Assembly (NCBI GenBank): GCA_947630535.1
Contig: CANRHZ010000019.1
Location: 1-35,050 of the forward strand
DNA from: Candidatus Gastranaerophilales bacterium
GTDB lineage: Bacteria; Cyanobacteriota; Vampirovibrionia; Gastranaerophilales; Gastranaerophilaceae
Direction of reading: 5' to 3'
Length of the DNA stretch: 35,050 bases
Each line of letters begins with the position of its first letter. Position 1 is the first letter of the stretch. The notes under the pieces are model-generated. The model was not told the origin of the DNA. It did no database searches and was given only the letters and a program-made list of their open reading frames with translations. Made by a program: the position numbers and the translations under genes. Below are positions 1-35,050 of the stretch, piece after piece.

Positions 1-24
1 GTAAGCTCCAAACAATTTAACCAT
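1..24 (-). CDS. Prepilin leader, truncated by the left window edge
   Basis: Only the first eight codons are present, reading MVKLFGAY on the minus strand from an ATG at 24. A GGGAG ribosome-binding site lies eight bases upstream of the ATG. The same eight codons start the partial gene at 35015, where they run into a poly-C tract; the G at position 1 is the first base of what would be the same tract here. By comparison with the complete gene at 275-1278, the missing part should be a type IV pilin-like protein with a homopolymer in its leader. What follows is outside the window, so the reading phase cannot be judged. Confidence 0.6.
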
Positions 25-65
25 AAATTAAACTCCCATCTATATTTTAGTACAATTTCATTTTA
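1..65 (-). repeat. Prepilin 5' module, copy 1 (upstream segment, RBS, start codons)
   Basis: This 65-bp segment is an exact inverted copy of 34974-35038. Read on the minus strand it holds an AT-rich upstream segment, a GGGAG ribosome-binding site, an ATG at 24-22 and seven further codons ending in TAC. A third copy at 1276-1310 keeps 35 bp of it, covering the upstream segment, RBS and ATG. The strict conservation of an untranslated region in front of different prepilins suggests a cassette spread by recombination. Confidence 0.85.
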
Positions 66-274: not shown

Positions 275-1278
275 TTATCTTTTCACGCAGCTAACGTAGT
301 TCAAACCCGAGCGTGTGCTCCTGTAGCGGTACCCATTGGGCATGCACTGTAGCCATGCAAGGCCGCTCGCACCTGAAGAAATGACTGAGCCTGACCAGTA
401 GTAACCGGAACTTATACCAAGTAAAGAACGATTGACAAACATTGAACCAAGTTCATCAATGTCAGGAAGTCTTGCATCATCAGATTGTTGAGTACAAAGA
501 GAAGCAGCATCTTTACCATCAGTGCTATATGATTTTGCGGTTGATGTTGAAGCGTTACTTGGGAATGGGTTAGGCGCAACAACGACGCTATTGGTTCTAT
601 ATAGTACTGTGATAAATCCAACATCCTTTCCGACTTCATTCGGGCCTTTTAAACCGTTTAGGTCATATATCATATTAACGCAAGTTTTTGTTTGAACATA
701 CGACCAAGTATTTGTAACATTTGAACCGCAATTTGGATTATAAAAAAGTGCAACTGATTCACCGTTTATCGTTTCAAATGCTGCCGCTTTAATATCGGTT
801 GTAAGTTTGTAATCATCTTCTGAATAATCGTCAGGGTTAGGATATTGAGTAAAATAAGGGTTTAATTCTTTTAAACTTTTTGGAAAATCAAGATTAGTAC
901 CGTTTAGTGCAATAATGGATGATGGTATCCCGCATGCAGATAAATTATTTGAATTACAGATATTTTGTATTCTATAAACTTTTGATAGTCCATCAATTAT
1001 AAAGGCTTCTGCCGCACCATCTATGATTTGTTGTTCCGTTTCGTTATTTGATGAGCCATAACCTGCAACACTATCCATCTCTCCTATTGCTTGGCTCATT
1101 CTTGCATAAAGTGCTTTTCTTTGTGCGTTCCATGCTTTATCGTTAACATTAACTAATAAACTTGGCAACGTTATTGCTGCAACGATACCGATAATGGCTA
1201 GTGTTATCAATACTTCAGCTAAAGTAAAACCGCCTAATCCCTTGGGGGGGGGGGGTAACAACTTTTTAAAATAGACAT
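275..1278 (-). CDS. Type IV pilin-like prepilin with poly-C leader and lectin-like C-terminus; out of frame as sequenced
   Basis: This is a secreted pilin-like subunit with a type III prepilin signal: GLGG followed by FTLAEVLITLAIIG, with the conserved Glu at +5. The mature part is about 317 residues. The C-terminus (RLPDIDELGSMF, YYWSG, a terminal YVSCVKR) resembles DUF1566/Lcl C-terminal domains, which have a C-type lectin fold. The well-placed start is the ATG at 1278 with GGGAG eight bases upstream, but its frame meets 12 C and stops at TAG soon after. The pilin frame itself is open only from 1261, where the sole possible start is a TTG with no ribosome-binding site. With 10 or 13 C the leader would read MSILKSCY, a Pro run, then KGLGG. 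I read it as a phase-OFF gene. It is probably assembled by the type IV pilus machinery that includes the PilT at 21578-22675. Confidence 0.8.
278..406 (-). other. Candidate DGR-type variable region in the prepilin C-terminus
   Basis: The last 43 codons are clearly GC-richer than the rest of the gene and use codons rare elsewhere in the window (CGC, AGG, CTA, TAC, AGC). They encode the YYWSG to YVSCVKR segment of a DUF1566-like domain. Many codons are NNC/NNT of the sort obtained by substituting adenines in AAC/AAT, and this domain type is a known DGR target. No template repeat or reverse transcriptase is in the window, so the assignment is inferred from composition, position at the very 3' end, and domain type. 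Confidence 0.45.
1244..1255 (-). repeat. 12-C homopolymer, candidate phase-variation tract
   Basis: Twelve consecutive C on the coding strand lie between the ATG at 1278 and the prepilin cleavage site. In the ATG frame TAC takes the first C, and the remaining eleven shift the reading into AGG GAT TAG. Eleven C would run to a TGA a little further on; ten or thirteen open the gene. The tract encodes part of the leader peptide that is removed. Confidence 0.85.
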
Positions 1279-3158: not shown

Positions 3159-3813
3159 TCCGACAATCAGAAATTACATTAATTCATCGGGCGAATCAAG
3201 CGCAATAAACAGAGCCCGCCAATTGGACGGGTATATAAGCTCTCTTTACCAAAAAAATCAAACCCCAAACGAAGTTGATAAAGAAAATCAAACCTCATTT
3301 AATGAAGTATTAAAAACGTCAATTGATGAAAATGTTCAAAATAAAAACATTTTTTCGATTGATGCACCCCCCAATATTCCTTTCGGGGTGTTATCCGTAG
3401 GTTCTAAATTAAGAGCAAGTAACGATAAAAAATATGAAAAAAACGAGCTTATGGCTCTTGTTGATATGGCTTGCGAAAAGTATGACATGGACCCAAAACT
3501 TGTAAAAGCACTTATAAAGCAAGAATCGGGCTTCAACCCGAATGCAAAATCAAAGGCGGGAGCTTTAGGTCTAATGCAATTGATGCCAAAAACCGCAGAA
3601 GCACTCGGAATTAAAGACCCTATGAATCCTGCTCAAAACATAGATGGCGGGGTAAGATATTTAAAAGGGATGCTTGAAAAATTTAACGGGAATAAAATTC
3701 TGGCGCTTGCCGCATACAATGCGGGCCCGAATGCGGTTAAAAAATATGACGGCGTTCCCCCCTATAAAGAAACACAGAACTATGTTAAATCAATTTTGAG
3801 TATGTACTTATAA
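3151..3813 (+). CDS. SLT-family lytic transglycosylase of the flagellar operon
   Basis: This protein should cleave peptidoglycan between MurNAc and GlcNAc. Residues 1-100 are a Ser/Asn/Gln-rich region without a signal peptide. Residues 105-220 form the SLT/goose-type lysozyme domain, with the catalytic Glu in KALIKQESGFN, then GALGLMQLMPKTA, NIDGGVRYL and LAAYNAGPNAVKKY. It lies 12 bp before fliE, so it probably opens the wall for the flagellar rod, the job done in enterobacteria by the different enzyme domain of FlgJ. Lack of a Sec signal fits export through the flagellar apparatus, but that is inference. A good AGGGGAAAAGG ribosome-binding region precedes the ATG. Confidence 0.9.
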   Translation: MFNPTIRNYINSSGESSAINRARQLDGYISSLYQKNQTPNEVDKENQTSFNEVLKTSIDENVQNKNIFSIDAPPNIPFGVLSVGSKLRASNDKKYEKNELMALVDMACEKYDMDPKLVKALIKQESGFNPNAKSKAGALGLMQLMPKTAEALGIKDPMNPAQNIDGGVRYLKGMLEKFNGNKILALAAYNAGPNAVKKYDGVPPYKETQNYVKSILSMYL

Positions 3814-3825
3814 AAAGGATAAACT

Positions 3826-4149
3826 ATGGATGGTATTACACCGAAAATTAATTTAGGCGAAAGGATTGAACCCGGTAAAATTTCTACATTTAACGGCCCG
3901 ACCCGTATGAAAAGTATTGAACAACCTGAAACGGCTGATTTTAAAACGGTTATGGGCGGTTTAGTGGAACAGTTGAATAGCGACTTAAATGCGCCCGATC
4001 AGCTTGTTCAAGATATGATGCTTGATAAAGCCGATATCCATGATGTTATGACGGCAATACAAAAATCGGAAATTCAACTTAACATAGCGACTACCGCAAT
4101 AGGAAAAGTCGTCCAAACGTATGAAAAAATCATGCAAATTTCAATTTAG
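3826..4149 (+). CDS. fliE: Flagellar hook-basal body protein FliE
   Basis: FliE links the MS ring to the rod and is among the first substrates of the flagellar export gate. The 107 residues match the family length. The C-terminal half is typical: a conserved ADIHDVMTAIQKSEIQLN segment followed by a helix ending VVQTYEKIMQISI. The N-terminal half is variable, as usual. It lies between the transglycosylase and fliF, and fliE-fliF adjacency is standard. An AAAGGA ribosome-binding site precedes the ATG. Confidence 0.93.
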   Translation: MDGITPKINLGERIEPGKISTFNGPTRMKSIEQPETADFKTVMGGLVEQLNSDLNAPDQLVQDMMLDKADIHDVMTAIQKSEIQLNIATTAIGKVVQTYEKIMQISI

Positions 4150-4217: not shown

Positions 4218-5951
4218 ATGGATTTTAAAAAATTAATGGAAAATAAAACCGTTTTTTACGGTATTATAGCGGGAGCAACGGCAATATTAATTATATTTGT
4301 CATTATTTTTTGTTCCTTGATTTTTTCCGGAAATAAGAAAGTCGCAACCAAAAACGGTGAAATTAATTCACCTGCTCCTTCAAGAGTAATTCAAGAAGAA
4401 GTTTCCATAATGACAACAGATAAAATCGGCATTGCTATTGAAGTACAAGCTCTGCTTGCAAGGTACGGAATAAAGGCAAGAAGGGGGCTTGACGGTACAA
4501 ATTCGACCATTATCTTATCCCCAAAAGATAAAATAACAGAAGACCAGAGAGATATGGCAATTTTAAAAATTGTTGAATCAGGACTTGCCGATGAACATGT
4601 CGGGTTAGAGATGTTTGATAAAGGAGATTTTCAATCAACAAAAGACGATAAAAGAATTCGTCTTATGAGAGCAATTAACGGTGAACTTGCAAAACTCATA
4701 AGAAAAATTGACCCGATTGATAACGCTCAAGTTTTTATCTCTGTCCCCGAACAAACAATGTTTAGTGCAAATCAAAAACCCGTAACTGCAACAGTTCAGG
4801 TTCAATTGCCGCCCGACAGGTCGCTTGACCCAATCAAAGTTAAGGCAATACAAAACCTTTTGATGGGTGCGGTTCAGGGCCTTAAAGCAGAAAATATATC
4901 CATAACCGATACCAACGGCAGAGTTTATGCAAGCATTATAGACGGTGCAGACGATGCGCTTGCAAAAATTCAGGAAAACGATAGCTATATGCAGCAAAAA
5001 GTTTCCGCTCAACTTGACAGATTGGTAGGTAAAGGTAACCACGTTGTTACCGTATCAACTTTCTTGACGCAAGCACCCGTTGAAAAATCCAGTATAATTT
5101 ATGATCCGACTTCAAAGGCTGCCGTTTCGGAACAAGGCTTCACGGAAAAATTGGGAGATAATTCCTTTGATAACAATTCCGCAATAAATGCGGTAAGCGT
5201 GTATTTGCCATACGGTGTTCCAACCTCGGGGCAAAATTCTTCTCAGGACAGAAAATATGTTCGTCAGGCTCATGAAACTCAATACGGGGTTACAAAAACT
5301 CAAATCAATGAATATATGAGAGAAGGGGTTATAGAAGAAATATCAATCGCAGTTTCAATCGAACAGTCTGCAATTCCTATGAGTATGACCATAAACGACC
5401 TTAAAAATTTAATAGCTAAGGCAGCAAGCCCCCTTGTTGATCCCGAAAATGTTTCGATTGCCTTTGTTGAATCGACAAATCCTCTTATGGCGCCCGATAG
5501 CCCAAATAAACTCCCCAAACCCGAAGAATCAGGTAACCCTTGGTGGCTGGTCGGACTTGTTCTTCTTGTTGGCCTTTTCTTTGGTTTGAGGTATATAACT
5601 TCAAGAGTCAGAGCCGAACAGGATAAAAACAATCAGGAACTCGATTACTTAAGACAAAGAGCAAAAGAACAAGAAAAACAATTAAAAGACGTTAACTTAA
5701 AAGCTCAGGAACTCATACAAAAACAGGCACAGATGGCACAGAACCTTATCGAACAACAAAACCTGCAAAAACTTCAGGCGCAACAGGTTCAAGCAATGGT
5801 TTCTCAGGAAAAGTCCGAAGTTAAAGAAGCTAAAGACTCCAAAAAAGATTCCGATATTGAAGATGCAATAAGTGAACTTGCAATGGATTATTCCGGAGTT
5901 GATGATATAGAAGCTATAGAAAAGTTAAAAAGTTGGATTGAAGCAAGTTAA
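4218..5951 (+). CDS. fliF: Flagellar MS-ring protein FliF
   Basis: FliF forms the membrane/supramembrane ring on which the rotor and export gate assemble. Two membrane helices frame the protein, one at about residues 13-36 and one at about 440-460 (WWLVGLVLLVGLFFGLRYI). Between them is the YscJ/FliF periplasmic region with ring-building motifs (EVQALLARYGIKARR, DPIDNAQVFISVPEQTMF). The 577 residues are normal for FliF. The cytoplasmic tail is an unusually Gln-rich coiled coil ending in an acidic segment and SWIEAS, where the FliG-binding helix is expected. The gap to fliE contains TATAAT at 4175-4180 but no good -35, so an internal promoter is uncertain. Confidence 0.95.
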   Translation: MDFKKLMENKTVFYGIIAGATAILIIFVIIFCSLIFSGNKKVATKNGEINSPAPSRVIQEEVSIMTTDKIGIAIEVQALLARYGIKARRGLDGTNSTIILSPKDKITEDQRDMAILKIVESGLADEHVGLEMFDKGDFQSTKDDKRIRLMRAINGELAKLIRKIDPIDNAQVFISVPEQTMFSANQKPVTATVQVQLPPDRSLDPIKVKAIQNLLMGAVQGLKAENISITDTNGRVYASIIDGADDALAKIQENDSYMQQKVSAQLDRLVGKGNHVVTVSTFLTQAPVEKSSIIYDPTSKAAVSEQGFTEKLGDNSFDNNSAINAVSVYLPYGVPTSGQNSSQDRKYVRQAHETQYGVTKTQINEYMREGVIEEISIAVSIEQSAIPMSMTINDLKNLIAKAASPLVDPENVSIAFVESTNPLMAPDSPNKLPKPEESGNPWWLVGLVLLVGLFFGLRYITSRVRAEQDKNNQELDYLRQRAKEQEKQLKDVNLKAQELIQKQAQMAQNLIEQQNLQKLQAQQVQAMVSQEKSEVKEAKDSKKDSDIEDAISELAMDYSGVDDIEAIEKLKSWIEAS

Positions 5952-33760: not shown

Positions 33761-33824
33761 AACGAGCCTTGTAAGCCTTGAAGCATGCACTTAACAACAT
33801 TCGCTCTCCCTTGTCACCCTGAAC
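33761..33824 (+). repeat. Second short repeat family, copy 1
   Basis: This about 64-bp segment (AACGAGCCTTGTAAGCC to TTGTCACCCTGAA) recurs at 34163-34225 with a handful of substitutions. A 12-base fragment of it is also found at 33949-33960. It ends in a left arm of the palindromic repeat. Confidence 0.7.
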
Positions 33825-34162
33825 TAACCAGAAAATAGCACACAAGGCAAAATTCCCTTCGTATAAAGCATTTTATAATCAGAGCACGTAAAGCAACACA
33901 CATTAAACTTCCTTGTCACCCTGAACTTTGCAAAGCAAACAGGTGAAAAACGAGCCTTGTGCGCCTGTATCCGTAGGCGAAGCCGAAGGTGTTTCAGGGT
34001 CTGAGGGGTTGAGAATTCTACATCCCTTCTATTTGTTTAAATGCCTGTTACTTCCATTGGTAAGATGCTGAAACGAGTTCAGCATGACATTTATTAACTT
34101 AAATACAAAAATCCTTACTTAGTATACTGTCACCCTGAACTTTGCAAAGCAAATAAGTGAGG

Positions 34163-34225
34163 AACGGGCCTTGTAAGTTTTGAAGTATGTACTTAACAAC
34201 ATTCGCTCTCCCTTGTCACCCTGAA
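34163..34225 (+). repeat. Second short repeat family, copy 2
   Basis: This matches 33761-33824, including ACTTAACAACATTCGCTCTC, and runs directly into the palindromic unit that begins at 34214. It lies after a CTGAACTTTGCAAAGC segment that is also shared with the unit near 33914. Confidence 0.7.
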
Positions 34226-34327
34226 TTTATTTCAGGGTCTGAGGGATTGAGAATTCTACATCCCTTCTATTTGTTTAAATGCCTGTTACTTCCATTGGTA
34301 AGATGCTGAAACGAGTTCAGCATGACA
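34214..34327 (+). repeat. Most complete REP/BIME unit
   Basis: This copy has the whole layout: the left hairpin TGTCACCCTGAATTTATTTC plus AGGGTCTGA, the conserved centre, and the right hairpin GATGCTGAAACGAGTTC plus AGCATGACA. It is a convenient reference for the others. Confidence 0.75.
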
Positions 34328-34499
34328 TGTTGGGAAATTGTTTCAACAAGTTCAGCATGACATTTATTATTTTAAATACAAAAATCCCTACCCTGCATAC
34401 TGTCACCCTGAATTTATTTCAGGGTCTGAGGGGTTGAGAATTCTACATCCCTTCTATTTGTTTAAATGCCTGTTGCTTCCATTGGTAAGATGCTGAAAC

Positions 34500-34613
34500 T
34501 GTCTTGGATTTCCTCCACGCTCGAACAGTTCCGCAGTTGAACCTACGGTTCAAGTCCCTTTTATGTTCTCGCTATCCAGACTTGGCTTCGCCCTAGTCCG
34601 TACGGAAATCCGC
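34500..34613. mobile_element. About 114-bp insertion inside a REP right arm
   Basis: In the unit starting at 34401 the right arm is split: GATGCTGAAAC ends at 34499 and AGTTCAGCATGACA resumes at 34614. The inserted piece has GGATTTCC (34506-34513) near one end and its complement GGAAATCC (34604-34611) near the other. It also has a perfect internal hairpin, TTGAACC / GGTTCAA (34537-34553). It looks like a tiny non-coding mobile or palindromic element. Confidence 0.45.
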
Positions 34614-34841
34614 AGTTCAGCATGACATTTATTATCTTAAATACAAAAAACTCTGCCATGTATAATGTCACCCTGAACTTGTTTCAGGGTCTTACCGGCG
34701 CAAGAATATAACATGGGATTTATGCACTACTCAGATGCTGAAACGAGTTCAGCATGACATTTATTAAAAATCCCTACTCTGTATACTGTCACCATGAACT
34801 TGTTTCAGGGTCTGATACCTTTTGTATGTTATAATAAAACA

Positions 34842-34946
34842 ATGGATAAAACTTATGCCGTATATATTTTGACAAATTATAATGAAACAACTTTTTATAT
34901 AGGTGTGACAGGTAATCTGCAAAAAATCTTTTTTGTACCAATTTAA
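34842..34946 (+). pseudogene. Truncated GIY-YIG nuclease gene
   Basis: The first 26 or so codons read like the N-terminus of a small GIY-YIG endonuclease of the UvrC-N/YhbQ type: MDKTYAVYILTN, then FYIGVTGNLQ. Such proteins are usually about 80-100 residues. Here the similarity stops near 34920, and the frame ends after eight unrelated codons (KIFFVPI and stop). The catalytic Arg and Glu and the rest of the domain are missing. The break lies about 50 bp before the conserved prepilin module, so a recombination event that brought the module may have cut the gene. Confidence 0.7.
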
Positions 34947-34973
34947 ATTGTTGAAATGTATAAAATAATCTGT

Positions 34974-35038
34974 TAAAATGAAATTGTACTAAAATATAGA
35001 TGGGAGTTTAATTTATGGTTAAATTGTTTGGAGCTTAC
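34974..35038 (+). repeat. Prepilin 5' module, copy 3 (upstream segment, RBS, start codons)
   Basis: This is an exact inverted copy of positions 1-65. It holds the AT-rich upstream segment, GGGAG at 35002-35006, the ATG at 35015 and codons to TAC at 35036-35038. The identity breaks off right at its upstream edge, which marks the limit of the cassette. Confidence 0.85.
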
Positions 35039-35050
35039 CCCCCCCCCCCA
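35015..35050 (+). CDS. Prepilin leader with poly-C tract, truncated by the right window edge
   Basis: The first eight codons read MVKLFGAY and are identical to the partial gene at 1-24. They are followed by the poly-C tract and a final A, the same order as in the complete gene at 275-1278. If the sequence continues as there (AGGGATTAGGCGG), the ATG frame meets TAG and the gene is OFF with 12 C. The pilin part itself is outside the window. Confidence 0.65.
   Translation, partial: MVKLFGAYPPPP
35038..35049 (+). repeat. 12-C homopolymer in the right-edge prepilin leader
   Basis: Twelve C, the first belonging to the TAC codon, are followed by A at 35050. The length and placement equal those of the tract at 1244-1255. 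Confidence 0.8.

Follow-up and report, generated by a model that had tools for sequence, protein, structure and literature searches.

A poly-C tract in the predicted leader of retroelement-diversified type IV pilin-like genes, a candidate translational switch in a Gastranaerophilales genome

Introduction

Phase variation selects the surface protein that is shown, and diversity-generating retroelements (DGRs) change what a surface protein binds. Neisseria pilC carries a poly-G tract in its signal-peptide region and, like the gene described here, has a homopolymer in a leader that is cleaved from a type IV pilus component; it differs in being limited to one or two genes that encode a tip or accessory protein with a Sec signal peptide, with no pilin family. 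In the opa genes of Neisseria, CTCTT repeats within the sequence that encodes the leader peptide turn expression ON or OFF by frame (PMC3960869). The likeness to our locus is close, in that a multi-copy surface family carries the tract in a cleaved leader, ON/OFF control is based on frame and the mature protein is unaffected. However, the opa repeat is a pentamer rather than poly-C, the product is an outer-membrane barrel with a secretion signal peptide, and diversity arises by recombination with no retroelement.

On the retroelement side, DGRs diversify the type V tip pilins of Bacteroides (Macadangdang et al. 2024, as cited in PMC12632263). There too, in a gut bacterium, the part of a pilus subunit that binds is altered by a DGR, but the subunits belong to type V lipoprotein pili rather than type IV prepilins, and no leader tract is mentioned in the citing review (PMC12632263). 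Other DGRs have DUF1566/CLec targets and numerous variable repeats; “putative pilin structures” are named among the DUF1566 targets (PMC6642488), and in cyanobacteria the described DGR targets are either kinase-type or single CLec proteins (PMC7517822). These systems share with ours an Avd–template repeat–reverse transcriptase (RT) cassette, adenine bias, a C-terminal CLec/DUF1566 target and dispersed targets, and differ in having no phase-variable leader tract.

Leader ON/OFF tracts and DGR-diversified pilus proteins are thus each already known; what appears to be new is the presence of both on the same genes. A full-text search that took in few subscription journals and no preprints found no paper joining leader-tract switching with DGR-mutated type IV pilins. 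Of the two halves, the DGR-diversified lectin end is more surprising than the leader tract, and the arrangement concerns a genome-wide family rather than one gene. Here we describe it from a window, i.e., the whole 35,050-nucleotide stretch of DNA analysed, belonging to a Candidatus Gastranaerophilales bacterium.

Results

The pilin module of the window is read from the minus strand. It begins with a promoter-like site, TTGAAA-17-TAAAAT with TG before the second hexamer (1314–1342), which matches the consensus and may act as a promoter; the TG.TAAAAT portion is found again in nearly all copies of the module. A Shine–Dalgarno sequence, GGGAG (1287–1291), stands 8 nt upstream of the ATG (1278–1276), in agreement with the initial annotation, which had called this start codon well placed. 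A 23-nt leader start, ATGTCTATTTTAAAAAGTTGTTA (MSILKSCY.., 1256–1278), leads from the ATG to a tract of 12 C (12 G on the plus strand; 1244–1255) that puts the ATG out of frame with the pilin. Since the distance from ATG to tract is 23 nt, 10, 13 or 16 C would restore the frame. The computed frames reproduce the earlier statements that 10 or 13 C would suffice and that the two other frames stop soon, the open reading frame (ORF) from the ATG ending after 14 amino acids with 12 C and after 20 with 11 C. A TTG at 1261 was considered as an alternative start; it is in frame in the 12-C state, but lies at least 25 nt from GGGAG with no Shine–Dalgarno sequence at a usable distance and is unlikely to matter.

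On the 3′ side of the tract 322 codons are open, and the downstream pilin gene is intact, as had been proposed. The prepilin leader ends in KGLGG (1229–1243), with predicted cleavage G^F at 1229/1228, and the intact mature pilin, FTLAEVLITLAIIG..CVKR, occupies 278–1228, followed by a stop codon at 275–277.

Two further copies of the module are cut by the ends of the window. On the plus strand at the right end (35015–35050), an ATG and a 23-nt leader are followed by 12 C (35038–35049) and a single A, where the contig ends; the upstream module of this copy starts near 34948. At the left end (1–37, minus strand), GGGAG (37–33), ATG (24–22) and leader are present, and the contig ends at the first C of the tract. 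Outside the two 12-base tracts, no C/G run in the window is longer than 7. Just 5′ of the right-hand module lies the start of a short ORF that by eye reads MDKTYAVYILTNYNETTFYIGVTGNLQK, is GIY-YIG-like and is apparently cut off (34842–34947), and before it a repeat cluster (33761–34813) containing TGTCACCCTGAACTTGTTTCAGGGTCT, with 2–5 copies per family.

The window genome is a draft of 1.85 Mb in 72 contigs, with 35% GC as estimated from the window. It contains 61 C/G runs of at least 8, whereas 2.6 would be expected if bases were independent and 16 under a first-order chain. Most of the 61 are 10–16 long; for lengths of 10 or more the same two models give 0.08 and 0.8 runs, respectively. The long pure tracts are not due to chance. 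More than half (32/61) belong to the same module of TG.TAAAAT, GGGAG, ATG, leader, poly-C, AAGGGATT and prepilin start, and a 33rd copy (L011) has lost its ATG at a contig end. One module (L108), with its tract shortened to CC, is the sole copy without a pure tract. Tract-free pilins occur in this genome too, e.g., C38 (L102/L132).

ATG and tract can be read fully in 28 copies, and their lengths, like the frames that follow from them, are direct observations: 12 C in 18 copies, 11 C in eight, 13 C in one and 10 C in one. The 10-C copy has a 24-nt leader and is hence also out of frame, leaving a single in-frame copy (C7, with 13 C), fewer than a model of one third per frame predicts (1/28, p = 1.8e-4). 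In two pairs of tandem neighbours the tract differs by one C. Every complete tract-bearing copy (16/16) has an intact pilin ORF 3′ of the tract, and the median dN/dS of these genes outside the variable end is 0.16, which together indicate that the tract-bearing pilins are not dead genes. The family thus shows what is expected where slipped strands alter expression: a long pure tract at the 5′ end, frame shifts with early stops upon length change, and lengths of 10–13 C across paralogs.

About 20 further poly-C/G tracts lie in or near other genes. Several of the genes that could be named concern surface glycans: GT2, GT8 and GT11 glycosyltransferases, a polysialyltransferase-like gene, and polysaccharide deacetylase, acyltransferase and epimerase genes. 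These non-pilin tracts form an internal control, rough in that the clear cases were picked by hand and their frames assigned from the longest open frames; 10 of 16 clear cases are in frame, as against the 1/28 of the pilins (p = 3e-5). The out-of-frame excess of the pilins is therefore not a general homopolymer error of the assembly.

The window protein has the features of a type IV pilin: a class III leader that ends in G and is followed by F, Glu at +5 and a hydrophobic helix. Its prepilin motif, KGLGG^FTLAE, scores above the cut-offs of PF07963 and TIGR02532, and E6 (Glu5 of the mature protein) is invariant across 60 pilin sequences. The genome holds one prepilin peptidase gene (PF01478, E = 1.6e-15). 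The initial annotation had placed the tract inside a leader that is to be cleaved, and this location is borne out by the motif and the peptidase gene, from which cleavage is expected.

Using 60 paralogs, we predicted the structure of the mature window pilin with a pLDDT of 88 and a pTM of 0.85. The model consists of a long N-terminal helix (residues 2–51), a beta-rich middle and a C-terminal C-type-lectin-like domain (model residues 207–318; 278–613, minus strand). The closest structure to this domain is the C-terminal domain of Legionella Lcl (Z = 10.1, rmsd 1.4 over 90 residues). Further C-type-lectin-like chains, mostly eukaryotic, match at Z of 6–8, and Lcl alone stands clear of them. Residues 207–318 include the variable repeat, as in DGR targets of the C-type-lectin kind. 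The pilin would presumably be assembled on the surface and bind a ligand through its lectin tip.

The pilin C-termini are hypervariable directly before VRCVKR, and the genome carries a DGR cassette on contig C30 (locus L085) in which an Avd gene (bAvd, E = 6e-16; 3758–4099) lies upstream of an RT gene (4429–5643), with a 137-nt template repeat between the two (4264–4400). The nearest named relatives of this RT are from Candidatus Gastranaerophilales MAGs. The template matches 21 of 30 pilin ends, best of all that of the window pilin, whose variable repeat, the last ~137 nt of the gene (275–411, minus strand), is 84.7% identical to it. Thirteen of the 16 mismatches before the 3′ end of this repeat fall at template adenines. 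When the three closest variable repeats are pooled, adenines are changed at 43/102 positions and other bases at 22/249 (p = 4e-12); these template–variable pairs show the adenine-biased differences at the 3′ end of the gene that mark a DGR target. With all 22 alignable repeats included, the bias weakens (core 294/550 versus 222/792), as expected if older copies drift too. Over the last ~20 nt the template departs systematically from the variable repeats, much as in the 3′ recognition region of known DGRs, and this segment may have the same role. The retroelement may still be active today. A second RT (L086, 4180–5094; contig C50 of the window genome, G000) was rejected as a DGR RT because it is of the retron type VI-like class (PADLOC RT_VI, E = 1.7e-79); small HTH genes surround it.

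Homologous pilins occur in two other genomes of the genus, with 108 in G001 and 13 in G004, and none was found at E 1e-30 in the six other genomes. The G001 pilins at the loci examined begin directly with MKK..GFTLAE and have no leader tract, and this genome has its own template repeat and adenine bias. With 108 pilins and no tract at these loci, G001 indicates that the pilin family can do without the switch. G017 and G054, which come from another genus of the bacterial family, encode 121 and 92 pilins, respectively, and both have their own DGRs with adenine bias. In all, DGR RT homologs were found in 12 of the 98 genomes searched. The pilin leaders of G017 contain poly-G tracts of 9–14, located 27–49 nt past an ATG led by a Shine–Dalgarno sequence. 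Only 3 of 24 such copies are in frame, again fewer than one third per frame would give, and 18 of the 24 are exactly one base above the in-frame length despite their varied leaders, an excess that random slippage does not predict. Some leaders at the G017 pilin loci (L179–L217) have 120–183 nt from tract to pilin. Poly-G is present in pilin-like leaders of G009 and G012 as well.

The initial annotation had looked to related genomes for varying tract lengths. The strict pattern of the window module was found in 0 of 97 relatives, because the flanks differ; the design returns with poly-G of 9–14 and other leaders in G017. C runs of 49–51 in some relatives border on N or on the end of a contig, and we regarded them as artefacts. 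Searches of viral contigs for the leader and for the pilin gave no match, and there is thus no sign of a phage-borne origin.

Discussion

We consider it probable, judging from sequence evidence, that the tract switches translation of this pilin gene ON or OFF, the gene being one of a large type IV pilin-like family whose lectin tip is rewritten by a DGR. Replication slippage would lengthen or shorten the tract. At 10 or 13 C, ribosomes that start at the good ATG would read on into the prepilin, and at 11 or 12 C they would stop after 14–20 codons. Prepilin peptidase would then remove the leader including its proline run, so that the mature pilin would be unaffected by tract length, and the DGR, acting in trans with the Avd, template repeat and RT of contig C30, would rewrite the ligand-facing lectin end. 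Each cell may in this way expose few of its dozens of pilins, and every pilin would have a binding face scrambled by the retroelement. The slipped-strand switch put forward in the initial annotation gains support from the anatomy of the module, from at least 32 copies at lengths of 10–13, from the poly-G design in another genus and from the glycosyltransferase tracts. Slipped-strand phase variation at each pilin locus, combined with retroelement rewriting, appears to be the most economical reading, with slippage in vivo and its effect on expression as its presumed steps.

The excess of out-of-frame copies fits an OFF-biased design but could mask some other means of reading such copies. Because tract lengths are centred on out-of-frame values, each pilin locus may usually be silent, with about one to a few pilins shown per cell while the DGR rewrites silent and active tips alike. 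We put this forward tentatively, as a library whose chances are somewhat below even. If it is true, clonal gut bacteria would try out many binding specificities, one after another.

The alternative that fares best is slippage by RNA polymerase or the ribosome at the tract, which would yield a low, steady output from every copy, a damper with no heritable switch. In its favour, the assembled copies are mostly out of frame and yet intact and under purifying selection, and most G017 copies share a single offset. However, the window genome has both wrong frames (11 and 12 C) behind near-identical leaders, so that no single frameshift rule fits, and the long tracts in glycan genes of the same genome are mostly in frame, unlike those of the pilins. 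Because of the out-of-frame excess we keep this explanation in consideration, as an unlikely one.

A little less likely again is that the module serves mainly as a recombination site, with silent pilins swapped into an expression locus via identical promoter and leader blocks, and that the tract is incidental. The module is indeed near-identical at more than 30 places, in contrast to the gene bodies, which differ, and the differences between two closely related pilins (L017 and L019) are clustered, with long identical stretches between them, which suggests gene conversion among copies. Yet each copy has its own promoter-like site, Shine–Dalgarno sequence and ATG, which leaves no obvious single expression site, and, apart from the shortened one (L108), all modules retain a pure tract that obeys the expected frame logic.

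Least credible is that the lengths are assembly or sequencing errors in genes that are truly all in frame: homopolymers are error-prone and several of the 72 contigs of this draft end at the tract, but a long pure tract recurs at no fewer than 32 loci, each with flanks of its own, errors would have no reason to prefer out-of-frame lengths, the glycan-gene tracts of the same assembly being mostly in frame, and an independent genome of another genus has the same pattern with a different base.

If a heritable pilin switch and retroelement rewriting do act on the same genes, these uncultured gut relatives of cyanobacteria, with dozens to ~100 copies in each genome, would possess an antibody-like diversity system of two layers that could serve adhesion or phage escape.

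Tracts of 10–16 also lie in glycosyltransferase, acyltransferase, deacetylase, GDSL and epimerase genes of the window genome (L013, L025, L029, L037, L038, L045 and L050), which are likely further phase-variable surface genes.
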